A stretch of 62,585 nucleotides of DNA from a virus. Positions 12,001 to 43,776 of this stretch are shown one piece after another (position 1 is the stretch's first letter; every line of letters starts with the position of its first letter). Below the pieces are notes generated by a model. The model was given only the letters and a program-made list of their open reading frames with translations. It was not told the origin of the DNA and searched no databases. The stretch covers positions 1 to 62,585 of the IMG/VR virus record IMGVR_UViG_3300044813_000005; one strand, 5' to 3'. Both the position numbers and the translations under genes were made by a program.

Positions 12001-12445
12001 CGTGACGCGCGCGCGCGGGTGCGCCCCCAGGTGGGTGTGCGGGTGCGCGCGTGTGTGTGCGTGTGCGCAGGCCCAGGCGCGCGTGTGCGGGCGCGCAGGC
12101 GTGTGCGCAGGTGCAGGTGTGCGTGTGCGCGTAGGCAGGCGCACAGGCGCGCGTAGGTGCAGGTGCGCGGGTGCGTGTGTGTGCGCGTGCGGGCCTGCCG
12201 GCGTGTGTGCGCGTGTGCGTGACTGTGCGTAGGCGCGTGCCTGTGCGTGCCTGCCTGAGCGTGTGTGTGCGCGGCTGAGCTCGTGCGTGCTGGCGTGTGC
12301 GCTGCTGGGTGTGCGTGTGTGCCCGCTTGTGTGTGGCGTGTCTGTGTGTGCGTGTCAGGTGCGGCGCTGGTGTGTGTGCAGCCCCGTGTGCTGGCCGTGG
12401 GCGGGCATGTAGCCGTGGTGCCTGAGCTGCGTGTGCGTCATCTGT
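12001..12445. repeat. GT/GC-rich alternating purine-pyrimidine tract
   Basis: About 445 bp in which the plus strand is almost entirely G, T and C in alternating units such as GTGTGCGTGTGCGC and GTGCGCGCGTGTGTG, with very few A. Such alternating tracts can adopt Z-DNA. There is no coding signature. It is strongly unlike the rest of the genome. Confidence 0.75.
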
Positions 12446-12447
12446 GT

Positions 12448-12479
12448 GCTTGCTGTTGCTAGCGCTTGCTGTTGCTAGC
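12448..12479. repeat. Perfect tandem duplication, 2 x 16 bp
   Basis: GCTTGCTGTTGCTAGC occurs at 12448-12463 and again, with no gap, at 12464-12479. Each unit ends in GCTAGC, a 6-bp palindrome. It sits at the right edge of the GT-rich tract. Confidence 0.8.
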
Positions 12480-12546
12480 ACCCTGCCGGCCGAGCTGCCG
12501 GAGCTGCGCTGTGTGCGTGTCCGGTATGTGGGACGGTCACCCTGTC

Positions 12547-16737: not shown

Positions 16738-16983
16738 GCCCCCGGACGGTTGCCGCCGTCGCGGGGGTTCCTTGCTCTGATTCTACTACTCGCGCAGTCC
16801 CTTTATATATTTTCCGGCCCTATAGCCCCGGCCGTCCCTTCATGCGTCATGTACCTGGCAGGTCATGTAGCGCCGGGCGTCATGTAGCAGAGGCTGGCAC
16901 GGAGGGGCAGGCACCTCATGTGGGGGACGCTGCCACGGAGGCAGGCCGGACGTTTGGGATTGCTTTCCTAATCCGGCGGGCTT
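16738..16983. other. Intergenic region with AT-rich island and direct repeats
   Basis: No gene is seen. It holds CTTTATATATTTT at 16801-16813, the most AT-rich stretch noticed, and three GTCATGTA repeats. It lies between two endonuclease genes of the same strand. Confidence 0.55.
16846..16886 (+). repeat. Iteron-like GTCATGTA repeats
   Basis: GTCATGTA at 16846-16853, 16862-16869 and 16879-16886, spaced 16 and 17 bp, with a degenerate CTCATGTG near 16916. Regular spacing beside an AT-rich island is the look of a replication origin or a cooperative operator. Confidence 0.5.
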
Positions 16984-25627: not shown

Positions 25628-25812
25628 GGCGTGGTGCGGGCGGGGGCAGCGGCTTCCCCTTCCGCCACCCCCGCCCGGTCTGTGGGCTGCTGCCACCACA
25701 CGCCGGCCCCGTGCGAGGCGGGTGCGGGCCGTCCGGTGAGGAGCCGGGCGAGGTCGGTGGGGATGCGGACGACGCCTGCGGAGCGGAGCCACCGCCGGTC
25801 GGCGCGGGTCAT
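25624..25812 (-). CDS. Small basic hypothetical protein
   Basis: 62 aa, starting MTRADRRWLRSAGVVRIPTD, with a low-complexity Ala/Pro C-terminus. Coupled between the DpdA-like gene and its neighbour. Function is unknown. Confidence 0.5.
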   Translation of the reverse strand: MTRADRRWLRSAGVVRIPTDLARLLTGRPAPASHGAGVWWQQPTDRAGVAEGEAAAPARTTP

Positions 25813-26585
25813 GCTGCCCCCTCGAAGATGGATGGCTGGTGGTATTCGGTGCCTTGGAGTGCCCGGTCACGCCAGCGGGTGGCATAGCGCAGGCAGTTGG
25901 CGCAGGACTTGTGGCCGGTGCAACCGGGGAGGGTGCGGTCGCGGCGGGCGCGGAATGACCAGCTCATGCTGTCGGCGCTGGTGAGGTGGGCGGCGTAGGT
26001 GCGGAGGCCGTCGCCTTTGCAGCCGAATCCGTGTAGGCGGATGCCGAGGCTGGCTACGAGCTCGAGGATGTGGGCGACTTCGCCGGTGTTCTGCCTGCGA
26101 CATACGGATCCGACGCCGACGGTCGGTTCGACGGTGAGGTCGATCCCGGCGGCGGCGTACTGGTCGGCGTGGTTGAGGTAGTCGGCGGCGGCGAACCCTT
26201 GGAGGACGGGGATCCACGGCAGGTCGGGGGCGGCGTGGCGTAGCTCCAGTAGGTTGTCGGTGGTGCGCTGCTGGTGGTCGGCGACGGTGAGGCCGGTCTT
26301 GTCGAGGACGAACGGTTCGCACATCCAGTCCTGTGGGGCGGCCCAGTCGAGCTTGCCGATCTGGTCGGCGTACCGGCGGGCGGCGGCGACGTAGGGCCGC
26401 GCACCCTCGGCGTAGGCGTCGGCGCCGTGGAGGTTGAGTTCGGTGAATCCGCCGGAGTCGAGGACCCACGGGTGCAGGGCGCGGGGGAACGTCTTCCGAC
26501 CGGCGAGGCGGCGGTGGCTGACCATCAGCGGGTACGGGGCGACGTCCAGCCAGGACGGCATGTGGGTGCCGAGGTAGAACATCAT
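25809..26585 (-). CDS. dpdA: DpdA-like DNA deazaguanine transglycosylase
   Basis: 258 aa. It has the tRNA-guanine transglycosylase-type core: LGTHMPSWL at the start, WVLDSGGFTEL (DSGGF motif), PQDWMCEPFVL, VLQGF, VGVGSVCRRQ, RLHGFGCKG and SADSMSWSFRARR. C-terminal cysteines (GCTGHKSCANC) could bind zinc. Phage DpdA enzymes insert 7-deazaguanine bases into DNA and protect it from restriction. No preQ0 synthesis genes are seen; a YhhQ transporter gene is encoded nearby. Host tRNA modification is an alternative. Confidence 0.8.
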   Translation of the reverse strand: MMFYLGTHMPSWLDVAPYPLMVSHRRLAGRKTFPRALHPWVLDSGGFTELNLHGADAYAEGARPYVAAARRYADQIGKLDWAAPQDWMCEPFVLDKTGLTVADHQQRTTDNLLELRHAAPDLPWIPVLQGFAAADYLNHADQYAAAGIDLTVEPTVGVGSVCRRQNTGEVAHILELVASLGIRLHGFGCKGDGLRTYAAHLTSADSMSWSFRARRDRTLPGCTGHKSCANCLRYATRWRDRALQGTEYHQPSIFEGAA

Positions 26586-32172: not shown

Positions 32173-32237
32173 ATGGCAATCCTGCACCACCCTTCTTGAC
32201 ATGTCAAGCCTGCGCGGGGACCATTCCTGACATGTCG
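32167..32237. promoter_or_regulatory. Three operators in the divergent switch promoter
   Basis: TGACATATGG at 32167, TGACATGTCA at 32197 inside the perfect palindrome CTTGACATGTCAAG (32195-32208), and TGACATGTCG at 32228. Spacing is 30 and 31 bp, about three helical turns. The central palindrome holds back-to-back TTGACA -35 boxes (plus 32196-32201; minus 32207-32202). The minus promoter has CAGGAT at 32184-32179; the plus one perhaps GACCAT at 32219-32224. Confidence 0.75.
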
Positions 32238-32275: not shown

Positions 32276-32635
32276 ATGGCCACACGCACGGTGACCTGGG
32301 GTGACGCGCTTCTCGCGGAAGCCACCAAGGCGCCCGGTGGGCTGAAGCAGGCCGTCGAGACGATCCGCGAAGAAGTGGGACCGCTCATCGGCACGCGGAA
32401 CACGTTCGCGAAGCTGCTGAAGGCCGAGGGGCCGGAGTCGCTGAACGAGTCAGACCTGTGGCGGGCGTGGCTGCTGCTGGTCGTGCTGGGGCAGGAGCCC
32501 GCCGACTGGGATGTCGACCTGTCGGTGATGCCCCGCGCCTACAGCGAGCGGGCGCTGCGGGCGAACCTGTTCAATGCGGTGCGCCGTCAGGGACTCGAAC
32601 CCCGAACCCGCTGGTTAATGGCTTCGGCGGCGTAG
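32276..32635 (+). CDS. Candidate immunity repressor with attP-encoded C-terminus
   Basis: 119 aa. GTRNTFAKLLKAEGPESLNESDLWRAWLLLVVLGQEPADWDV and AYSERALRANL look like actinophage immunity repressors of the BPs/Brujita kind, by memory. Residues from about 101 to 114 are encoded by the attP core, and the last five, MASAA, lie just beyond it. The Ala-Ala end resembles an ssrA-type degradation tag. Integration would replace that tail. It is followed by int, as in phages with integration-dependent immunity. Confidence 0.7.
   Translation: MATRTVTWGDALLAEATKAPGGLKQAVETIREEVGPLIGTRNTFAKLLKAEGPESLNESDLWRAWLLLVVLGQEPADWDVDLSVMPRAYSERALRANLFNAVRRQGLEPRTRWLMASAA
32580..32618. other. attP: attP core identical to a tRNA 3' half
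   Basis: Read on the minus strand it gives part of an anticodon loop and stem, GGGGTTCGAGTCCC (T arm with TTCGAGT loop) and ACGGCGCA (acceptor strand and discriminator). This looks like a tRNA-Lys 3' half. There is no 5' half here, so it is not a tRNA gene. It lies 75 bp before the integrase start and inside the repressor candidate. Confidence 0.82.
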
Positions 32636-32692
32636 CAGCCCCCCGGTTCCCCCGTTCGGGTGATTACGCCATGCACGCACGGTCAGCAGGAT

Positions 32693-33505
32693 ATGACAGT
32701 GACCACATCTCATTGGGAACCGGAGATCAAAGCGTGGGTCGGCTGGCTGCGCGCCGCCGGCCGTCCGCCGACCACCATCTACTTGAGGACCTACCACATC
32801 CGCCGGATCGGGCTGGTGTTCCCAACCCGCTCGCCGTGGGCGCTGACCGTCGAGGACCTGGCCGGGTGGCTGGGTGTGCATGACTGGTCCCCGGAGACTC
32901 GCCGCTCGTACCGGGCCAGCCTGCGTGCGTTCTTCGGCTGGGGGCTCATCACCGGCAGGGTGGTGGGTAACCCGGCGGCGCTGCTGCCCGTCGTGAAGCT
33001 GCCGGTGGGGAAGCCGCGGCCGGCACCGGAGCTGGTGTACCGGGCGGCGCTACTCCGCGCCGACGACCGGGAGCGCCTGATGCTCCGGCTGGCGGCGATG
33101 GCGGGTCTGCGCCGGGGTGAGATCAGCCGGGTCCGCGGTGATGACGTGGAGGCTGATCTGATCGGCTGGTCGCTGCGGGTGGTGGGGAAGGGCAGCGCGG
33201 TGCGGCTGGTGCCGCTGTTGGACGAGCTCGCCGCCGACCTGGCGGGTTTCTCGGGGTGGGTGTTCCCGGGGCAGGACGACGGGCATCTGTCGGCGGCGCA
33301 TGTGGGGAAGCTGATGTCGCGGCTGCTGGGGCCGGGGTGGACGGCGCACGGCCTGCGGCACCGGTTCGCCGCGCGGGCGTACGAGCCGGAGCGGGACATC
33401 CGGGCGGTGCAAATGTTGCTCGGTCATGCGTCTGTGGTGACGACCCAGCGGTACACACCGGTCCCGGCGGGGGCGTTGCGGGCTGCGGTCCTGGCAGCGT
33501 CCTAG
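32693..33505 (+). CDS. int: Small tyrosine integrase
   Basis: 270 aa from ATG at 32693; GTG at 32660 would add 11 residues. A SAM-like core-binding domain covers residues 1-100. Catalytic residues: R in GLRRGEISR, K in VVGKGS, H-x-x-R in HGLRHRF, H in LLGHAS, and Tyr in TTQRYTPV. Little sequence precedes the core-binding domain, so an arm-binding domain appears absent, as in Brujita integrase. Stop shares CTAG with the convergent gene. Confidence 0.9.
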   Translation: MTVTTSHWEPEIKAWVGWLRAAGRPPTTIYLRTYHIRRIGLVFPTRSPWALTVEDLAGWLGVHDWSPETRRSYRASLRAFFGWGLITGRVVGNPAALLPVVKLPVGKPRPAPELVYRAALLRADDRERLMLRLAAMAGLRRGEISRVRGDDVEADLIGWSLRVVGKGSAVRLVPLLDELAADLAGFSGWVFPGQDDGHLSAAHVGKLMSRLLGPGWTAHGLRHRFAARAYEPERDIRAVQMLLGHASVVTTQRYTPVPAGALRAAVLAAS

Positions 33506-34890
33506 ACGGTCGTGACTCCGACCAGCCGCCGCGCGCGCCACACGCCGTAGATCGGCACCGGCCCCCGGACGTTCGCCCCCGGATGCGGCGCTTCGACGAT
33601 CATGCCTCCGCCGAGGTAGATGACGACGTGCCCGCTGTCGGGGAACACGAGGTCCCCGCGCTGGATCTGCGACGGGTCCACAGCAACGCCCATCCCGATC
33701 AGCGTGGACGTGGTCGGCCGGCCGGGCAGCTTGAACGCGGCGTCGACGAGGCCGGAGCAGTCGAACGCGTTCGGGCCTTCCGCACCCCATACGTACGGCT
33801 TGCCGACCTGCGCCAGCGCGTACGCGATCGCCGCTTCGACGGTGGGGCTACCCGAGGTGGGGACGGTCGGCGTGCAGGTGACGGCGACAGGCTGCGCGAT
33901 CGGGTCGGCGACTGGGACGACCGGCGGGAACGGCCCGAGCGCGCCGCGGGCCTTGGCGAGCGCCTGCACGGCCTGCGCCTCGAACTTCAGGTAACGCCCG
34001 CTGCTGTACGTCTCCGCCCACGGCCTGCCCCAGTCCCAGCCTGCGTCCCGGAGGACAATCAGCGCCGCGTTCGCGTTCGCCTGCGGGTCGCGCCACGTCT
34101 CGCCGGGCAGTAGGCCGGGGTGGGCGGACAGCATGATCTGGAAGATGCCGCGTGCGCTGGTGTGCGGGTTGGCCGCGTTGGGGTTGGCCCCTGATTCGGC
34201 GAGGAGCACTTCCTGCGCGGTCAGCGGGTTGGGGAAGCCCCGGCCGTCCGGTAGGCGGGCCTTGAGCACGGCGCGGGCGGCGACGACCGCCGGCTCGTCG
34301 GTGCTGCTGGCGGGGATGCTGGCCGGGCCGGTGGGGCAGCACGGCGACGGCGCGGACACCTGCGTCGTCGGTGCGACGGGCTGCGCCGGGTCGACCGGCG
34401 CGGTCCCGCCTTTTACGGCGGATTGGAAGGCGTGCCAGCCGGTGGCGAGCGCCTGCCCAACCTGACGGCCGGCTGTCTCCATGCCGGCGCGCATCTGCTC
34501 GGCGTCCGGCGGCGGCTCAGTGAGCTTGTGCGCGAACCCACCGAAGCGATACCCGATGCCCGCCGCACCCCCGACCGGCAGCGGCGTGCAGGCCAGCGAG
34601 GCGTTGTAGGAGGCGGGGTGGACGAGCCCTTGGACGGCCCGGTCGAGCTGCGGGTACGCGCCGAGGAGCGCCTGCCAGATGAGGGTGAGGATGAACCCGA
34701 GGATCGCCAGCAGCTTCGCCAGCGACAGGTGGGACAGGGCGGCTTTGGTGCCGCCGAGCAGGCTGGGTCCGGCGGCGTGGGCGCCTTGCTTGGCGAGCCC
34801 GCCGAGGAGCGACTGCCCGCCGTGCGCCCACCCCCAGCCGAGCCCTTTGCAGACGGCCTTGGGTCCCCACAGGAACGGGTTCCAGCCCAT
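33502..34890 (-). CDS. Transglycosylase and NlpC/P60 peptidoglycan hydrolase
   Basis: 462 aa. An N-terminal membrane segment (LAKLLAILGFILTLIWQALLG) near residue 60 is followed by a Pro/Ala linker, then an SLT-like domain with VLLAESGANPNAAN and GIFQIM (catalytic Glu), and a C-terminal NlpC/P60 domain with NAFDCSGLVDAAF (Cys) and GHVVIYLG (His). The layout matches VirB1-like cell-wall enzymes of actinobacterial conjugative elements. It lies four genes downstream of the FtsK-like gene in the same operon. Confidence 0.83.
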   Translation of the reverse strand: MGWNPFLWGPKAVCKGLGWGWAHGGQSLLGGLAKQGAHAAGPSLLGGTKAALSHLSLAKLLAILGFILTLIWQALLGAYPQLDRAVQGLVHPASYNASLACTPLPVGGAAGIGYRFGGFAHKLTEPPPDAEQMRAGMETAGRQVGQALATGWHAFQSAVKGGTAPVDPAQPVAPTTQVSAPSPCCPTGPASIPASSTDEPAVVAARAVLKARLPDGRGFPNPLTAQEVLLAESGANPNAANPHTSARGIFQIMLSAHPGLLPGETWRDPQANANAALIVLRDAGWDWGRPWAETYSSGRYLKFEAQAVQALAKARGALGPFPPVVPVADPIAQPVAVTCTPTVPTSGSPTVEAAIAYALAQVGKPYVWGAEGPNAFDCSGLVDAAFKLPGRPTTSTLIGMGVAVDPSQIQRGDLVFPDSGHVVIYLGGGMIVEAPHPGANVRGPVPIYGVWRARRLVGVTTV

Positions 34891-35198
34891 CAGCTAGACG
34901 TGGCCCAGTGCTCGCAGCCGAGGCACCGTCCGCCCGGGACGTTGGCGAGTGGCCGCTTGCAGTCGACGCACGGGTACGCGTCAGGGGTCAGCACCGCGTC
35001 GACGGGGGCTGCCGGGATTGCCACTGGTCGGAGTCGTAACCAGATGATGGCGACCGCCCCGCCGACGAGGATGGAGACGAGGAGCCAGCCGAGCCACGGG
35101 TGGGTGACGGCTTCGAAGATGACGAACAGCTCGAGGGGCCAGGCGGCGAAGATCGCGGCGGGGGTGATCTGGAAGTCGGTCCAGAACCCGCGCCTCAT
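34890..35198 (-). CDS. Membrane protein with zinc ribbon
   Basis: 102 aa from ATG at 35198. Two hydrophobic segments (IFAAWPLELFVIFEAVT; LGWLLVSILVGGAVAIIWL) and a C-terminal CVDCKRPL...CLGCEHW zinc ribbon. It is coupled to both neighbours. Probably part of the FtsK-linked envelope complex, by position. Confidence 0.65.
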   Translation of the reverse strand: MRRGFWTDFQITPAAIFAAWPLELFVIFEAVTHPWLGWLLVSILVGGAVAIIWLRLRPVAIPAAPVDAVLTPDAYPCVDCKRPLANVPGGRCLGCEHWATSS

Positions 35199-35692
35199 GC
35201 CGCTGCCCTCGTCCGTGGGTGCGGTTTGTTGCAGGTGGCGCACATGAACAGCGGCGGCCGCCCGCCGGCCTGGAACGGATGGTCGGCCGGAAGTTTGCCG
35301 ACCCGCCATTCCAGTTTCCTGTCCCCGTTCCGCATGAGGAACTTCTCAAGGCCGAGCTGCTTCAGTTCATCCGCGGAGTGACGAGCCAGTGGCCGCTGGT
35401 CGGGCGTCGCCTGCCATGACCGCCACGTCTTGACCGCACGGCGTACGTGCGGGGCGGCGAGGCCGACCCCGGCGAATGCAGCGCCGCCGATGACGAGGAG
35501 CGGGGCGTGGACCCACGCCGTCGCCAGCACAGCAGCGCCGACGCCGAGGCGCAGCGGCCGGTTCTTGGCGTAGAACCGCTTCGCCGACCGCTTGACCGTG
35601 GCCTTGCCGCGCTGCCCTTTGACGCCCTTGCGGTAGGCGGTGGCACCACTCCGGGTCTTGTACTGGCCTCCACGGCGCTGGTAAGTGGTCAT
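35195..35692 (-). CDS. Basic membrane protein
   Basis: 165 aa from ATG at 35692. A very basic N-terminus (YRKGVKGQRGKATVKRSAKRF) precedes two hydrophobic segments (LGVGAAVLATAWVHAPLLVIGG). The C-terminus has CATCNKPH. Its ATG overlaps the FtsK-like stop. Similar small membrane proteins accompany TraB/FtsK genes in integrative elements. Confidence 0.65.
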   Translation of the reverse strand: MTTYQRRGGQYKTRSGATAYRKGVKGQRGKATVKRSAKRFYAKNRPLRLGVGAAVLATAWVHAPLLVIGGAAFAGVGLAAPHVRRAVKTWRSWQATPDQRPLARHSADELKQLGLEKFLMRNGDRKLEWRVGKLPADHPFQAGGRPPLFMCATCNKPHPRTRAAA

Positions 35693-37530
35693 GAGGCTTC
35701 GCCTTCTTTCCATACGGGGGCTGTTTGAGCCTGTCCAACGTCTATGCGGCGGGGGGTTTGAGCGTGCCGCGCGGGAACGGCGCGTAGGGGTTGAGCCTTC
35801 GGCGCGGGGGGTGCGAGGCGATATGCGGAGCCGTTGCGGGTCCCATAGCGCTCCACGGAGCCAGCCATCTTCGCGAGGCGGAGGCCGAGCGTCGTCGGGT
35901 TGGGCGGCCGGAGGTCCGGGTCCAGCAGGTCGTGGATGCCCTTTGCCGTCAGCGGGCCGTGGATTGTGAGGATGTCGACGACGGCGCTCTCAAGGTCGAC
36001 GACCTTCGGCTTGCCGAGAGCGCGGAGTGCCCTGGCCCGGTCGCAGATCGCCCGCCAGTCGGCGTCGTCGATGTAGTCGAACCGGAACGCCACCTCCACG
36101 CCGGGGGTCATCATGATCGCCTCCCCGCGCTGCGCCGGCAGGGGGACGGTCGGCGTCTCCCCGAGGATCAGCTTGGCGTTGGCGGCGTTCCGCATGGCGA
36201 GGGCGAACCGGGTGTCGATGAGGTCCCGGACACCGCCGGGGAGGTCTTCGACGGACGGTCGCTGGGTGGAGAACAGCATGACCAGCTCGACGGCCCGACA
36301 GAGGCGGACGAGGCGTTCCATCGTCGCGTCGATCCGGGTGAGGGTCTTCTTGTCGGCGCCGGACCGGACGTCCTGGAACTCTTCCAGGATCAGCAGGACG
36401 CCGGGGTCTTTGACGGCCGGGTCGGTGGAGTTGCGGGTCCGGACGAGGTTCAGTACTTCGTCGAGCATGTCGGCCAGTTCGGCGGCGGCGTCTTCGGAGG
36501 TGCCGCGGACGAACGTGTCGCACAGGTCCCACAGGTCGCGGTAGTCCCGGGCCGACCCTTTGCCGTCGAGGCCGAAGATGCGGGTGCGGGGGTCGAGGAT
36601 GAACTGGGCGATGACGAGACGGGCGGCCCTGGTCTTGCCGCGCCCGGGCATGCCGGCGATGAGGATGTTGTGTTCGTCCGTCTCCACGTCGACGGGGGTG
36701 CCGCGCAGCATCTCCGCGCCGACGCGGAACGGCTGGTCCCATTCGGTGCGTTCGGCGGTGGCGAGGTGGGAGCGGACGGGCGGCAGGTTCGGGCGGGGCA
36801 GGCCGACGAACATGCGGACCATCGACGCGGGTGTGTTCGGCGGGTGGCTGATCTCCACGAGCGCGGGGTCGAGGCGGAACGCCCCGGCGAGTTTGGCCCG
36901 GTTGGCGATGAACGTGTCGCAGGGGACGGCGTGCCGTCCGTCGGCGATCAGCTCGAAGTCGATACGGGTCCCGGCAGCCGTGTGAACGGGCTGGCCGTGG
37001 CGGCGGGTCTTGGGCTTGCGGCCGTTCGCTGCGGTTTCTTTGACGATGCCGGCGAAGATGCAGGCGGGGATGAGGCTGCGTTCTTTCCAGAACGTCAGCT
37101 GGGGTGCGGGGCGGGTGAGGATCGCGGCGGGGACGCAGACGGCGAGCAGTAGGAACGCGATCAGCCGGGGCGGGACGACGAGGAGCGCCAGCAGCCCGAC
37201 AACCGTGGCGGCGGCGGTGCCGGCGAGGACCCGTCGGCCGGTGAGCCAGCGGGAGTCGGGCGGGTAGAAGGACCGTTCGGCGCGGGTCCGCTCGAGCCCG
37301 GCCCACAGCCCGGCACCCGCGAGGGCGACGTAGGCGAGGGCGACGATGGTGGTGGCGGGGATGACGGCGACGGCGATGAGGACCCCGGCCGCGCCGAAGC
37401 ACAGGCGCCGCCCCCGTTTGGAGACGGCGCCGGTGGCGGTGCGGGCGAGGATGAGTAGGTCTTTCTGGCGGGCTGCGGTGCTGTGGCCGACTGCCAGCCG
37501 GTACAGGGCGCTGCCGGTGGCGGAGGTCAC
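35689..37530 (-). CDS. FtsK/TraB-like DNA translocase
   Basis: About 613 aa from GTG at 37530. Two pairs of N-terminal membrane segments. Walker A is AGMPGRGKTRAA, Walker B LLILEEFQDV, and a sensor region FSTQRPS follows. The C-terminal 70 residues look like a winged helix (LTAKGIHDLLDPDLRPPNPTTLGLRLAKM). This is the layout of actinobacterial TraB and FtsK, which move double-stranded DNA between cells or compartments. It is unusual in a phage genome. Confidence 0.83.
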   Translation of the reverse strand: MTSATGSALYRLAVGHSTAARQKDLLILARTATGAVSKRGRRLCFGAAGVLIAVAVIPATTIVALAYVALAGAGLWAGLERTRAERSFYPPDSRWLTGRRVLAGTAAATVVGLLALLVVPPRLIAFLLLAVCVPAAILTRPAPQLTFWKERSLIPACIFAGIVKETAANGRKPKTRRHGQPVHTAAGTRIDFELIADGRHAVPCDTFIANRAKLAGAFRLDPALVEISHPPNTPASMVRMFVGLPRPNLPPVRSHLATAERTEWDQPFRVGAEMLRGTPVDVETDEHNILIAGMPGRGKTRAARLVIAQFILDPRTRIFGLDGKGSARDYRDLWDLCDTFVRGTSEDAAAELADMLDEVLNLVRTRNSTDPAVKDPGVLLILEEFQDVRSGADKKTLTRIDATMERLVRLCRAVELVMLFSTQRPSVEDLPGGVRDLIDTRFALAMRNAANAKLILGETPTVPLPAQRGEAIMMTPGVEVAFRFDYIDDADWRAICDRARALRALGKPKVVDLESAVVDILTIHGPLTAKGIHDLLDPDLRPPNPTTLGLRLAKMAGSVERYGTRNGSAYRLAPPAPKAQPLRAVPARHAQTPRRIDVGQAQTAPVWKEGEAS

Positions 37531-37534
37531 GGGC

Positions 37535-37771
37535 TTACTTGACGGTTGTGTTGGTGGCGGTCTGCGGGGTGGTCGGCGCGGTCTTGCTGGGTGCGGCGGG
37601 TGCGTCAGTGAGCCCGTGGTAGACGGCTGGGACGAACACCTGCCCTGCCAGCTTGAGCCCACCGCCGAGCGCGTGCCCCGCTCCGCCTAGCACCTGCCCT
37701 GCGACGGTGGCCCCGTTAATGAGGACCATGTACGTCGCGAACGCGGCGACGATGACTGCGATCTTCTTCAT
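37535..37771 (-). CDS. Small membrane or secreted protein
   Basis: 78 aa. MKKIAVIVAAFATYMVLING is a signal anchor, followed by a Gly-rich segment and a Thr/Pro-rich tail. First gene of the FtsK operon, just downstream of the inverted repeats. Function is unknown. Confidence 0.65.
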   Translation of the reverse strand: MKKIAVIVAAFATYMVLINGATVAGQVLGGAGHALGGGLKLAGQVFVPAVYHGLTDAPAAPSKTAPTTPQTATNTTVK

Positions 37772-37830
37772 GCGCCCGAACCTTCCCCTGTGTGCCCCGG
37801 CCGCCGTATGCGGGCGGTGACACAGCGAGA

Positions 37831-37871
37831 CTACCTCACCGGGTGAGAATGACTAGCACACGTTGAGGTAG
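37831..37871. promoter_or_regulatory. Overlapping inverted repeats in a divergent promoter
   Basis: CTACCTCA at 37831-37838 pairs with TGAGGTAG at 37864-37871. Within the left arm CTCACCGGGTGAG (37835-37847) is another perfect palindrome. It lies between divergent operons at 37771 and 37905 and fits an operator for a regulator of the transfer-like module. Confidence 0.6.
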
Positions 37872-37904
37872 TATGCGGGGGTCGATCTTGTACCGTCAGC
37901 GAGC

Positions 37905-38156
37905 ATGACGCCGGAACAGGTGGCGAACATCAGTGATCCCGAGCGTCGCGCTGTCGCAGCGCAGGCTGCCATCAAAGCGGGCAACGACCGGCTCGACCGA
38001 CTTCGGAAGCTCCGCGACGACGCCATCGGCGACCTGCGGGTGGCCGGCTGGACTCAGACGCAGATCGTCGATCTGGTGGGCGTGTCGTCAGCCAGGGTCG
38101 CGGCGATCGACCGGGCGCAGGGGATCGTCACCGAGCGGACCCGCCGGAGGCAGTAG
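37905..38156 (+). CDS. Small HTH protein
   Basis: 83 aa. A helical first half (RLDRLRKLRDDAIGDLRVAG) leads to WTQTQIVDLVGVSSARVAAIDRAQG, a sigma-4 or Cro-like helix-turn-helix. It diverges from the FtsK operon across the inverted repeats and may bind them. Confidence 0.7.
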   Translation: MTPEQVANISDPERRAVAAQAAIKAGNDRLDRLRKLRDDAIGDLRVAGWTQTQIVDLVGVSSARVAAIDRAQGIVTERTRRRQ

Positions 38157-38603
38157 GTGGCGACCATGACGCTGGTCGAGTTCTTGCTGGCACGGATCGC
38201 CGAGGACGAAGCAGTAGCGCGGGCGGCCATTGGTACCGCCGCCTTCTCGCGCCAGACAGGACGCTGGTCATTCGAGAACGTCCACGACTCATTCGGCGCG
38301 ATACCTATCGTCTTCGCGGTGACAGATGCCGGAGCAAAGACGCAGGCGGCGAACATGGAGGCGGCGTGGGAGCGCGAGGAACGTGGTACCCACATCGCCC
38401 GGTGGGACCCGGCGCGCATCCTCGCCGAGTGCGAGGCGAAGCGGCGGATCGTGGAACTGCACCTGACGGCCATGACGACCCCGCCACCTCCCGATCCTTA
38501 CCAAGAAGGTCTCGTACAGGGTTGGAGAGACACGAGCGTGTTGCAGTTACTCGCGTTGCCGTACGCCGACCACCCGGATTACGACCCGGCGTGGCGCCCA
38601 TGA
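38157..38603 (+). CDS. DUF6221 family protein
   Basis: 148 aa with a GTG start and GGAGG 6 nt upstream; an ATG three codons in is possible. FLLARIAEDEAVARAA, then HIARWDPARILAECEAKRRIVELH match a family common in Streptomyces chromosomes and mobile elements. Function is not known to me. Its stop overlaps the next ATG. Confidence 0.78.
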   Translation: MATMTLVEFLLARIAEDEAVARAAIGTAAFSRQTGRWSFENVHDSFGAIPIVFAVTDAGAKTQAANMEAAWEREERGTHIARWDPARILAECEAKRRIVELHLTAMTTPPPPDPYQEGLVQGWRDTSVLQLLALPYADHPDYDPAWRP

Positions 38604-39079
38604 CACGCCGCCGCCGGCCGTGGAAGTCCGCCGCCACCGTGACCGTCCTGGCGTGGGGGATGCTCGCGTCGAAGACCAGCCCCGCGGCGGCGACGGTCGT
38701 GTTCGCCGCCGTGTCCGCGCTGGCCGTGGGCTGCCTGGTCATGGCGCGGGCACCGCGCCCGCCCCGGCAGGTCCGGCCGCGCAGCTATGGACGCCCGGTA
38801 GCCGCAGTCCCCGAGCGGACCGGGCTGTACCGCTGGTGGGGCACCCGCCTCGACGGCACCCCCGGCTTGCTGTACGTCGGCATCTCTGACCAGCCGGTCG
38901 CGCGCCTGTCGCAGCACCAGCAGGACGGCAAGCATTGGACGCTGCGGGTGACCGGCTCGACGGTGCAGTGGTATCCGAACCGGGAGATGGCACTAGCCGC
39001 GGAGGAACGGGCGATCAAGACGGAGCGGCCCGAAGCAAACATCATCCATGCGGGGCGGCGGCGGAGGCTGGCGGCATGA
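38600..39079 (+). CDS. GIY-YIG nuclease with membrane N-terminus
   Basis: 159 aa from ATG at 38600. Two hydrophobic segments (SAAATVTVLAWGMLASK-type; VVFAAVSALAVGCLVMA) are followed by TGLYRWWG, LLYVGISDQP, RLSQHQQDG and a C-terminal Glu/Asn (ALAAEERAIKTERPEANI). The core matches GIY-YIG. The membrane anchor is unusual for homing enzymes and hints at action at the envelope, with the transfer-like module. Confidence 0.78.
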   Translation: MTRRRRPWKSAATVTVLAWGMLASKTSPAAATVVFAAVSALAVGCLVMARAPRPPRQVRPRSYGRPVAAVPERTGLYRWWGTRLDGTPGLLYVGISDQPVARLSQHQQDGKHWTLRVTGSTVQWYPNREMALAAEERAIKTERPEANIIHAGRRRRLAA

Positions 39080-39176: not shown

Positions 39177-39473
39177 TCAGGCCAAGTCGCGCACATTCCC
39201 GCCGGGCGGGTCGTCCTTCGCCGGCAGCAGCGACGCAGAGTTCGGCGCGCCGGTGAACCGGGCCAGCCCGCCCTTCACGATGGACAGCAGCGTCGGCGCG
39301 CAGGCGATCAGCGCTTTGTTCCACACGGACACGTCGGTCAGGTAGTTGGTGCCGATCCCGGAGGCGACCATCAGCCCGAGGAACGACTCGACGTAGGTGG
39401 CTCCGGCCCGCTCGACGAGGTCGAGCAGGTAGTTCCCGCCACCGGCGATGCGGCGCGACCCGGTCGCCATCAT
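39177..39473 (-). CDS. Holin
   Basis: 98 aa from ATG at 39473, overlapping the endolysin stop as ATGA. Segments YVESFLGLMVASGI and VWNKALIACAPTLLSIVKGGLARF and a hydrophilic tail fit r1t-type holins of actinophages. It lies directly downstream of the endolysin. It would permeabilise the membrane at lysis. Confidence 0.75.
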   Translation of the reverse strand: MMATGSRRIAGGGNYLLDLVERAGATYVESFLGLMVASGIGTNYLTDVSVWNKALIACAPTLLSIVKGGLARFTGAPNSASLLPAKDDPPGGNVRDLA

Positions 39474-40897
39474 GCGGCCGGGGTGGGTGGGTTCTGGATG
39501 TCGGACAGGTTCGCCTGCCCGTCCTTCGCCGTCCCCGGCCCGTTGTCGCCGTAGCGCAGCGGCCGGTACAGGTGGTGGTACAGCCACGACTTGGCGTCCC
39601 CCACGTAGGCGGCGCCGTGGAGCTGCCTCACCTTGGCGAGGAGTTCGGCCTGTTCGGCGTCGGACAGTGCCATGAGCGGTCCCTTCGGAGCGGGGGCGGG
39701 TGTCGGGGTGACCGGTCCGGCGGGCCGCCAGTTCCGGTTGATGGACGGCGGGTTCGCCAGCATCGTCTTCACGAACGGGTCGAAGTCGGTCTGCATGTTG
39801 AACCCGGCCGTGTCTGTCTTCCGCCCGGCGGGGGTGGCGAAGTCGGCGTGCCGCACATCCCAGTCGGTGTTCAGGCCGAGGTAGTTGAGGGTGCTGGCGA
39901 CGAGCCGCCGGTACGCGTCGAGCTGCGCGGCGGGCCAGGGAGCGCCAGTGCCGGGGTTCTCCGCTTCGACGCCGAGAAAGTGGCCGTTGCCGTCGGCGAC
40001 GCCGTTGTAGTAGCCGACGCCAGCGTGCCAGGCGATCCCTTCGGTGACGAGGTAGATGGTGCCGCTGCGGCCGAGCCCGTAGTTGCACAGCGGCCCGGGA
40101 AGGTCGGAGCGGCCGCGGGTGACGATGCCCAGGCTCGGGTAGTCGCCGGGCGCGGACGCGGATGTGGCGGTGTGGTGCAGCATGATCCCTTGGACGGTGC
40201 CCATCGCTCCGTGGCCGGTTGTCCAGGCGGCGCGGACGGGGTAGCCGGTGCGGGCGGCGATGGTGGTCATGTCGGTGCGGGTCAGTCCGCTCATAACGCC
40301 TCCGGTGTCAGGTGCCCAACCGCCCCAGTCGGCTTGCAGGACGGCGTCCTCGTCGGTGTCGGCGGGGCTGCTCCCGGCGATGGGTGGGCCGGGGTGGGTG
40401 TTGCGCTGGTACAGGCAGGCGACGGCGGACACCTTCCCGGCGGACCAGGCGACGGTCTGCCAGCCGTAGGCGGCGAGTCCGGCGCGGACTGTGCCGTCGA
40501 CGACCTGGTAGGAGCCGTACACGCCGGCCGGCCTGCCGAGGAGGACGCTGGCGACACCTTGGAAGTAGGCGGCCACCTTGTCGGCGGTGGTGTCGGTGTC
40601 GACGGCGAAGTACAGGCAGACGGTCGGCGGGATGCCGAGGGCGGTGGCGACGGTGAGCGCGGTCCGGCCGTCTTCCTGCCCTGCCGCGTAGCCTTCGAGC
40701 GCGCGGGTGGTGCGGGTGGGCCCGTCGCCTTCGTAGACGAACCCGACGGCCAGCCCGGCGGCGTGCAGCGCGGCGATCTCCGTGGTAGCGACGGCCTTGC
40801 CGGCGCCGGTGAGGTAGCGCATCACCCCGGCGTACCCGGCGGCCTTGATGGCGGCCGGTGACGGCCGGGCGTAGGAGTAGTCGACGAGCAGCGTCAC
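39470..40897 (-). CDS. lysA: Endolysin: DUF1906 domain and PGRP amidase
   Basis: 475 aa with a GTG start. Residues 1-200 form a DUF1906 glycoside-hydrolase-like barrel (VDYSYARPSPAAIKAAGY, YFAVDTDTTADKV, DEDAVLQADWGG). Residues 220-370 are an N-acetylmuramoyl-L-alanine amidase with GIMLHHTATS, ITYLVTEGIAWHAG-type text and DWDVRHADF for zinc. The C-terminal 90 residues may bind cell wall. It cuts host peptidoglycan at lysis. Confidence 0.88.
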   Translation of the reverse strand: MTLLVDYSYARPSPAAIKAAGYAGVMRYLTGAGKAVATTEIAALHAAGLAVGFVYEGDGPTRTTRALEGYAAGQEDGRTALTVATALGIPPTVCLYFAVDTDTTADKVAAYFQGVASVLLGRPAGVYGSYQVVDGTVRAGLAAYGWQTVAWSAGKVSAVACLYQRNTHPGPPIAGSSPADTDEDAVLQADWGGWAPDTGGVMSGLTRTDMTTIAARTGYPVRAAWTTGHGAMGTVQGIMLHHTATSASAPGDYPSLGIVTRGRSDLPGPLCNYGLGRSGTIYLVTEGIAWHAGVGYYNGVADGNGHFLGVEAENPGTGAPWPAAQLDAYRRLVASTLNYLGLNTDWDVRHADFATPAGRKTDTAGFNMQTDFDPFVKTMLANPPSINRNWRPAGPVTPTPAPAPKGPLMALSDAEQAELLAKVRQLHGAAYVGDAKSWLYHHLYRPLRYGDNGPGTAKDGQANLSDIQNPPTPAA

Positions 40898-42899: not shown

Positions 42900-43261
42900 C
42901 CGCCGGGCCTCGGGCCTTTGCCGTCCCAGTAGACAGCCCACGCGCCCGCGACAAGCGCGTCGGAGACGTTCGTCCCGTCGGGGAGGGTGACCTCGGCCAT
43001 CCACTCGTCGCCGTACTTGTACGGGCCGACTGTCTCGATCATCAGCGGTTTGCCGAGCAGGAACGTGGCCGCGGCGATGGTGGCCGCCTTGCCCTGGTCG
43101 GTGCTCGCCGGTGGGGTGTTGATGCGGTTGAGCCGTAGCCGCTGCTCGAAGGTGGCGGTGCCGTGGAAGCCGAGGTCGCGGGACACGCGGGCGATGAGGC
43201 TGTCACCGTCGATGATGCGGACGGCGGTCGAGTCGGGCCAGGTCCAGACCGTGGCGGTCAC
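42896..43261 (-). CDS. Staphylococcal-nuclease-like protein
   Basis: 121 aa with a GTG start. VRIIDGDSL, QRLRLNRINTPPASTDQGKAA and ALVAGAWAVYWD follow the thermonuclease (SNase) fold, with Asp/Arg residues of the active site. No signal peptide is evident. It may degrade host DNA or act as a structural OB-fold. Confidence 0.75.
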   Translation of the reverse strand: MTATVWTWPDSTAVRIIDGDSLIARVSRDLGFHGTATFEQRLRLNRINTPPASTDQGKAATIAAATFLLGKPLMIETVGPYKYGDEWMAEVTLPDGTNVSDALVAGAWAVYWDGKGPRPGG

Positions 43262-43776
43262 TTGTCGTCCCCTCTGGCCCGCCGTAGCGCGGCGATCCGT
43301 ATCTGACTGACCCGGCCTTCGGTGACGCCCCACCGCTGCGCCATCTCGACGCCGGTCAACCCCCACCCGTAGGTCAGAGCCAGTGCCTCCCGGCAGCGCC
43401 GGTCGCAGCCCCGCAGCAGCCGCCGGATCGCGTCGGCGTCCTCAACCTGCTGGTAGCCGGGGTCTTCGTAGGCGGCGTGCCGGTCCTCCCACTCGTCGCC
43501 GTCGCGGTCCTGCTCGTCGTCGAGGGACACCATCGCCAGCCGGTAGGTGCGGCCGTACAGGGATCGCAACGAGTCGACGACCTGCCCGTGGACGCGGCGG
43601 CGGAGGAACGTGGACAGCGACCCCCGAGCCGGGTCGTAGTCCGGCAGGACCGCGAGCCCGGCGATCACGGCGTCTTGTTGAAGGTCGTCGGCCCACATGC
43701 CTCGCCCGTAGGTGCGGCGGACAGCGTGGCGGGCGAGCTGTTCGAGCAGGCGCAGGGTGGCAGGGTCAACCTCCAC
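43258..43776 (-). CDS. Sigma-70 family sigma factor
   Basis: 172 aa. Region 2-like ADDLQQDAVIAGLAVLPDYDPARGSLSTFLRRRVHGQVVDSLR, and region 4-like CREALALTYGWGLTGVEMAQRWGVTEGRVSQIRIAALRRAR. The connecting part is acidic. It is a compact ECF-like sigma without region 3. Encoded in the late operon near lysis, it may direct transcription of late or lysogenic genes. Confidence 0.85.
   Translation of the reverse strand: MEVDPATLRLLEQLARHAVRRTYGRGMWADDLQQDAVIAGLAVLPDYDPARGSLSTFLRRRVHGQVVDSLRSLYGRTYRLAMVSLDDEQDRDGDEWEDRHAAYEDPGYQQVEDADAIRRLLRGCDRRCREALALTYGWGLTGVEMAQRWGVTEGRVSQIRIAALRRARGDDK

Follow-up and report, generated by a model that had tools for sequence, protein, structure and literature searches.

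Organization of the FtsK-hydrolase operon

The window analyzed here, a single linear IMG/VR record (IMGVR_UViG_3300044813_000005) of 62,585 bases, carries on its minus strand, at positions 33502-37771, an operon of five genes in the order P78, FtsK, P165, P102 and SLT-C40. The first-pass annotation had placed at this site a TraB/FtsK-like ATPase, three membrane proteins and a transglycosylase-NlpC/P60 enzyme, and this arrangement was confirmed by the open reading frames (ORFs), the domains and the gene junctions. P78 and ftsK are separated by a 4-nt gap, and the next three junctions are overlaps: ATGA between the ftsK stop and the P165 start, ATGA again between P165 and P102, and TGATG before the hydrolase gene. 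Based on the start codons and these overlaps, the length of the FtsK-like protein was corrected from 657 to 613 amino acids. Since three of the four junctions overlap and domain matches were obtained, chance ORFs are not expected here. Hydropathy analysis gave transmembrane (TM) windows in all five products: one in P78, three in the ATPase, two overlapping ones in P165, two in P102 and one in the hydrolase. The three membrane proteins previously claimed therefore do have TM segments, and none of them shows a family match over the cut-off in Pfam, PHROGs or NCBIfam. No promoter was found in a sigma-70 scan. The operon is real, tight and unusual, and it is carried by a real phage. The features of the locus are listed in Table 1.

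Table 1. Features of the operon and of the surrounding region (positions in the window).
Feature	Position	Strand	Characteristics
P78	37535-37771	-	first operon gene; small product, single TM segment at the N-terminus (hydropathy); no family match
FtsK/TraB/TcpA-like membrane-anchored predicted dsDNA translocase	35689-37530	-	613 aa, GTG start; PF01580, phrog_1358
P165	35195-35692	-	basic N-terminus, TM hairpin, one C-terminal CxxC; no known family
P102	34890-35198	-	two TM segments, C-terminal CxxC...CxxC, zinc-ribbon-like by eye
SLT-NlpC/P60 membrane-anchored cell-wall hydrolase	33502-34890	-	TM 60-78, SLT-type ~224-291, NlpC/P60 363-442
Divergent intergenic control region	37772-37904		inverted repeat ACTACCTCA / TGAGGTAGT at 37830-37838 and 37864-37872
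Small helix-turn-helix protein, candidate regulator	37905-38156	+	divergent from the operon; HTH_31 and KORA, both weak, under cut-off
DUF6221 protein	38157-38603	+	PF19730, 1e-31; relatives in several FtsK-bearing contigs
TM protein with GIY-YIG nuclease domain	38600-39079	+	PF01541
Tyrosine integrase	32660-33505	+	PF00589, phrog_1; alternative start may be 32693
attP core	32578-32618	+	41/41 nt shared with the 3' end of a tRNA-Lys(CTT) gene
G/T-rich noncoding repeats	12030-12480	+	upstream of the terminase genes; speculative cis-acting site (12030-12380)

The phage carrying the operon

The window is that of a temperate siphophage of an actinomycete. The large terminase subunit (TerL), portal, scaffold and major head protein were identified in it, along with the tape measure and tail proteins, a tail fibre, a holin, a two-domain endolysin (39470-40897, PHROGs match), and an integrase and a repressor (Pfam, PHROGs). 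A primase/helicase of the phage type is also encoded. Terminase, portal, head, tape measure, tail, lysis, integrase and repressor genes are thus all present. The virion genes had been described as complete, and the parts listed above bear this out; the completeness of the contig itself is not proven, because its ends fall within the head module. Among named phages, the closest terminases are those of Streptomyces phage Rowa and its kin, at 56% identity or lower, and megablast searches with positions 1-25000 and 38001-62585 against 50,697 phage records yielded no matches.

The operon lies between the lysis genes and attP/integrase, about 1.4 kb downstream of the holin and endolysin genes and on the same strand as these. 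At its other end, the hydrolase gene is convergent with the integrase gene and overlaps it by 4 nt, and the attP core lies immediately upstream of the integrase. The tRNA-Lys(CTT) gene matching this core is that of Prauserella salsuginis (L171 in genome G051). The attP core is joined in the record, so that the contig corresponds to the free form of the phage, and the phage genes continue across it. Since, in addition, the contig ends fall inside the head module, the record probably represents excised, circular or packaged DNA. The position of the operon between the lysis genes and the joined attP means that it is part of the phage genome rather than an integrative and conjugative element (ICE) lying beside a prophage.

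Two other genes of the window deserve mention. A DpdA-family protein encoded at 25809-26585 (PF23859, 2e-88) suggests that the phage DNA may undergo 7-deazaguanine modification, and a protein of this family, 53% identical to that of the window, is also encoded by the FtsK-bearing phage G464. A sigma-factor-like protein (phrog_351) is encoded at 43258-43776, within the late region.

The FtsK-like ATPase

The ATPase matches PF01580 with 26 bits (cut-off 24) and phrog_1358 at 1e-21, a family which PHROGs places in the category moron/host takeover; the plasmid_TraB model gave only a weak match (21 of 800 bits). In the predicted fold (mean pLDDT 69.6), residues ~150-505 alone were modeled with confidence. 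The best-ranked solved structure was TcpA of plasmid pCW3 (Z 27.1), which was tied with FtsK (Z 26.6). In a quick tree with 61 rows, the window ATPase lies outside the clade of the chromosomal FtsK proteins, and outside the supported group holding 27 of the viral FtsK rows; it is grouped with genes of phages and of the type found in actinobacterial integrative and conjugative elements (AICEs), on a long end branch (2.9). Judging by these comparisons, the protein is TraB/TcpA-like rather than a housekeeping FtsK, and very diverged.

No close relative of the whole operon was found in the phage, plasmid, viral-contig and genome searches. With tblastn, the ATPase gave no match at 1e-5 among the 50,697 phage records, 80 weak matches when E values up to 10 were accepted, and matches in three plasmid records at about 25% identity. 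A pattern search for its relatives returned none from the viral contigs and 13 matches from the genome contigs, none of which is a relative. The gene was found in 0/31 viral contigs with related terminases, in a search without a positive control, and it was not found in five related prophage regions (43 to 62 kb) or in phage Rowa (tblastn, 1e-4). Matches at 1e-12 occur in 15 of the 394 genomes sampled, the best being 31-33% identical, and the two that were read closely look like AICEs, with genes judged by eye to be Rep-like and integrase-like.

The hydrolase and its pairing with FtsK

The NlpC/P60 domain of the hydrolase is well above the cut-off (PF00877, 55 bits against 23), while the SLT domain is just below it (SLT_3, 26 of 27; SLT, 19.8 of 21.3). 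The Cys and His residues of the NlpC/P60 domain, which we take to have their usual roles, align with those of solved enzymes. Basic residues precede the only TM segment of the protein, which suggests that the hydrolase faces outward. This enzyme is distinct from the phage endolysin.

NlpC/P60 domains were detected in 7 of 33 contigs (the window and 32 FtsK-bearing viral contigs), in six cases over the cut-off, and outside the window they lie either inside tail-type frames or at least ~15 kb from FtsK. Beside FtsK itself, NlpC/P60 was found in none of these other 32 contigs, which may be fragments. The SLT+C40 layout was found, starting from the hydrolase, in eight Streptomyces plasmids, at 29-31% identity, and in all eight an FtsK/SpoIIIE gene lies directly upstream of the SLT/C40 gene or is separated from it by one small ORF. 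In the one plasmid examined closely, the genes that follow encode a weakly TraG/VirB4-like ATPase and multi-TM proteins, among others. The search for the cassette elsewhere, which the first-pass annotation had proposed, thus recovered the FtsK and SLT/C40 pair in Streptomyces plasmids, and not in other FtsK-bearing viral contigs. When residues 1-340 of the hydrolase were compared with the 394 genomes, six matches were obtained; short SLT proteins are present in the five regions where the gene was called (that of L244 was not called), and no FtsK match was found in the stretch examined around any of these five. No paper describing a phage operon that couples FtsK to a wall hydrolase was found among open-access titles and abstract openings, which does not establish absence from print.

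FtsK genes in other actinophages

A pattern built from four distant sequences retrieved 32 viral loci, of which L038 and L043, where no usable FtsK gene was called, are left out of the count of 30 used here. The 30 viral FtsK sequences form 27 groups at 90% identity and eight groups at 50%. Phage structural or lysis genes accompany FtsK at 14/30 of these loci (L033, L034, L035, L037, L042, L045, L046, L048, L049, L056, L057, L061, L063, and L064); L033 and L034 are of the same phage type and were tested with the proteins of L030, and for the other 16 loci the check covered only one tape-measure profile and the stretch examined. Gene pairs beside viral FtsK that might have been read as the Rep and Int of an AICE turned out to be TerL and portal, and this reading was rejected.

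The presence of FtsK near the interval between the lysis and integration genes recurs in actinophages, since it was observed in G479, G464, and G016. G479 shares the structural lineage of the window (portal 51%, major head protein 45%, scaffold 37%), and its FtsK lies between an endolysin-like gene and integrases. The order in G464 is endolysin, FtsK, a DUF2637 gene and integrase, and in G016 FtsK follows the endolysin and holin. In phage L046, the FtsK gene is located a few kb upstream of the terminase and portal. FtsK-like genes are also mentioned, in the parts of the sources available, in Thermobifida phage P1312 (ORF63; PMC4569894), Streptomyces phage Geonosis (PMC11536984) and Bacillus phage BtCS33 (PMC3359378).

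In L039 (6148-6957) and L049 (6505-7233), a TM gene of the DUF2637 family directly precedes the phage FtsK gene, with a 4-nt overlap at the FtsK start, and Streptomyces plasmid L029 likewise has a DUF2637 gene just before FtsK; none was found in the window by tblastn. In addition, a TM protein of ~75 amino acids with two CxxC pairs is encoded ~90-360 nt downstream of FtsK (L036-L063). It follows FtsK at 20/30 viral, 2/21 genome, and 0/9 plasmid loci, the genome count being a lower bound because at some loci only 3 to ~1,200 bases lie downstream. The two genome loci carry an FtsK of the phage type (40-46%), and no terminase was recognized within 20 kb of them. This protein seems to be a partner peculiar to FtsK of the actinophage type, a pairing for which no paper was found among open-access titles and abstract openings, although this does not show that none is in print. 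The likeness of P102 to it is confined to the layout (TM segments and two CxxC), and P102 was not counted as a homolog because a profile of 10 members of the TM/zinc-ribbon family finds nothing in the window.

Control region and other features of the window

The operon has its own divergent control region, facing the candidate regulator. Two palindromes, TGACATGTCA and TGACATGTCG, located at 32197-32237 upstream of the repressor gene, are possible operators; allowing two mismatches, matches to them elsewhere were at chance level, and TGACATGTCA-like palindromes do not occur in the control region of the operon. The sequence GTCATGTA occurs three times with a spacing of 16-17 nt in a noncoding stretch at 16846-16886. 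An exact 16-nt tandem is present at 12448-12479, inside the G/T-rich region upstream of the terminase. DUF6221 is also encoded by the linear Streptomyces plasmid pS1D4-14.2 (L166), together with a terminase, DUF1906, a transglycosylase and an integrase; this plasmid is apparently a phage-plasmid or carries a prophage.

Comparison with known transfer systems

Like the AICEs and the Streptomyces plasmids with TraB (pSAM2, pSVH1), the window encodes a membrane-anchored FtsK/SpoIIIE-family ATPase and small TM proteins, and the PF01580 match over the cut-off places the ATPase in the family of the AICE TraB/Tra protein. It also has a tyrosine integrase and a tRNA att site, which are shared with temperate phages and are therefore not discriminating. 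Unlike AICEs, which lack virion genes, the window is a phage with virion and phage replication genes and a wall hydrolase in the operon, and its ATPase is at most 31-33% identical to the relatives found in genomes. In the available parts of the sources, AICE transfer is reported to need only one TraB/FtsK-like protein (PMC3218068), which forms a hexameric pore and moves double-stranded DNA (PMC3218068, PMC9513070).

The linear plasmids of Streptomyces (pSglau1 and seven others) resemble the window in having FtsK beside a bifunctional lytic transglycosylase/C40 gene. The FtsK proteins are ~24-25% identical (two were compared) and the hydrolases ~30%, and the plasmid loci continue with weakly TraG/VirB4-like and multi-TM genes which the window lacks. 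The tcp system of pCW3 likewise combines an ATPase of the TcpA-like fold with a peptidoglycan hydrolase, and in the part of the source available both TcpA and the hydrolase TcpG belong to the transfer apparatus (PMC6137059). As described there, tcp also includes VirB6- and VirB8-like proteins, a second ATPase and a relaxase, none of which were seen in the window, where the relaxase and VirB8 families were not searched for; with the same limit, tblastn with the counterparts from plasmid L164 gave no match in the window except FtsK.

The FtsK genes of other actinophages (phrog_1358; P1312, Geonosis and IMG/VR contigs) have in common with the window an FtsK-family motor, in some cases also located between lysis and integration genes; the window differs from them in that its ATPase lies outside their main group and is adjoined by a hydrolase. 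Mycobacteriophage Thibault has an annotated FtsK-like protein with a weak tblastn match to that of the window; unlike the latter, it joins the chromosomal FtsK clade in the tree and has no hydrolase annotated beside it. The earlier view that the cassette resembles AICEs more than phage genes is supported by the TraB/TcpA-like ATPase and by the SLT/C40 pairing in the transfer-like regions of 8/8 Streptomyces plasmids, and was too strong in that broad-family FtsK genes are common in actinophages, including named ones.

Possible function of the operon

The operon appears to be built from known phage and conjugation parts, and a transfer role seems attractive. We tentatively favor, with a probability of about 0.4, a phage-borne, conjugation-like module for translocating double-stranded DNA without a type IV secretion system (T4SS), since the operon combines an AICE-type ATPase and a hydrolase without a T4SS body. 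The FtsK-like protein would be a membrane-anchored hexameric motor acting on double-stranded DNA, and P78, P165, and P102 might join it in the membrane as adaptors or pore partners in a single complex. The SLT-NlpC/P60 enzyme, anchored by its N-terminal TM segment with its catalytic domains outside, would thin the wall locally, and the phage genome in its excised circular form, or DNA linked to the prophage, might be pushed into a neighboring compartment or cell through a cross-wall or a contact between hyphae. The phage, whose host is a walled and probably mycelial actinomycete, would thereby gain a second way of spreading that needs no particles. Coupling of the five genes under their own divergent control region is consistent with such a module, as are the position of the ATPase outside the chromosomal FtsK clade, its fold closest to TcpA and FtsK (tied), the location of FtsK between lysis and integration genes in G479 and G464 as well, the pairing of FtsK with an SLT/C40 gene in eight of eight Streptomyces plasmids, the part of both TcpA and TcpG in pCW3 transfer, and a hydrolase which has a TM anchor and is not the endolysin. 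A more far-reaching version, in which a temperate phage has two modes of transmission, virions and a self-contained, particle-free conjugation-like machine moving its excised genome, is rather doubtful; the operon would then be the form with a hydrolase within a broader, poorly charted group of actinophage FtsK genes.

Several results weigh against a transfer module. The C-terminal DNA-binding domain expected in TraB was not confirmed in the model of the ATPase (pLDDT ~45-58), and the position of this protein in the tree is unsure owing to its very long branch. No counterparts of the VirB4-like and multi-TM proteins of the plasmids were detected in the window by tblastn. Neither the AICE Prim-Pol (family search) nor RepAM (PF12307, in a search where no control matched) was found in the window, and two RepSA-like proteins, named by eye, had no tblastn matches there. 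As to the clt-like repeats which the first-pass annotation had suggested looking for, octamer and repeat scans detected no array near the operon, and the role of the G/T-rich array at 12 kb is speculative. In the available part of PMC9513070, the clt motif is said to be undescribed even for pSAM2. Lastly, the operon shares the strand of the late genes and neighbors the lysis genes, so that a lytic role is possible.

Alternatively, the operon might act within a single organism to maintain or segregate the prophage. The translocase would drive phage DNA, or the chromosome carrying it, through septa as they close or into spores, the hydrolase would remodel the septal wall, and no DNA would pass to other cells. 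Chromosomal FtsK and SpoIIIE are septal pumps, the operon adjoins attP and the integrase, and FtsK is common in actinophages without an adjoining hydrolase, so that a pump alone must benefit a phage. However, septal pumping has no obvious need of a wall hydrolase coupled to the motor, and with an ATPase outside the chromosomal clade we consider this role unlikely.

Still less likely is a late, lytic-cycle accessory, in which the motor would assist in packaging or handling the genome, and the hydrolase, anchored in the membrane, would assist lysis of a thick wall. The strand and the distance of ~1.4 kb from the holin and endolysin genes would suit it, as would the frequency of NlpC/P60 in phage tail and virion proteins (phrog_2810, 329, 400) and the proximity of FtsK to the terminase and portal in L046. 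Nevertheless, three divergent plus-strand genes and the control region separate the operon from the lysis genes, the phage already has TerL, a holin and a two-domain endolysin, and the additional hydrolase is held by a TM anchor.

Lysogenic-conversion genes typically lie at a prophage end next to the integrase, and the operon might accordingly be placed among those by which a lysogen excludes superinfection or changes the host surface, the membrane proteins and the wall enzyme altering DNA entry for competing phages or conjugative elements and the ATPase gating or ejecting the incoming DNA; the filing of phrog_1358 under moron/host takeover is in line with this. The conserved motor core suggests active pumping instead, and no defence families were detected in the Pfam, PHROGs, and NCBIfam scans (the PADLOC library was not searched), which makes exclusion improbable. 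An assembly artefact joining an ICE fragment to a phage contig, which a single contig and the lack of any close relative of the operon in the searches might suggest, is very improbable given the uniform G+C content of the window, the 4-nt overlap with the integrase gene at a joined attP, and the FtsK of the related phage G479 in the same lysis-integration interval.

Implications

If such phages do pass DNA through cell contacts by means of a conjugation-like module of this kind, lysogens in mycelial bacteria could spread with no need of lysis, and a single continuum would link phages with conjugative elements. Even without transfer, the recurrent FtsK gene of actinophages becomes testable, because here a single small operon couples it to three membrane partners and a wall hydrolase.

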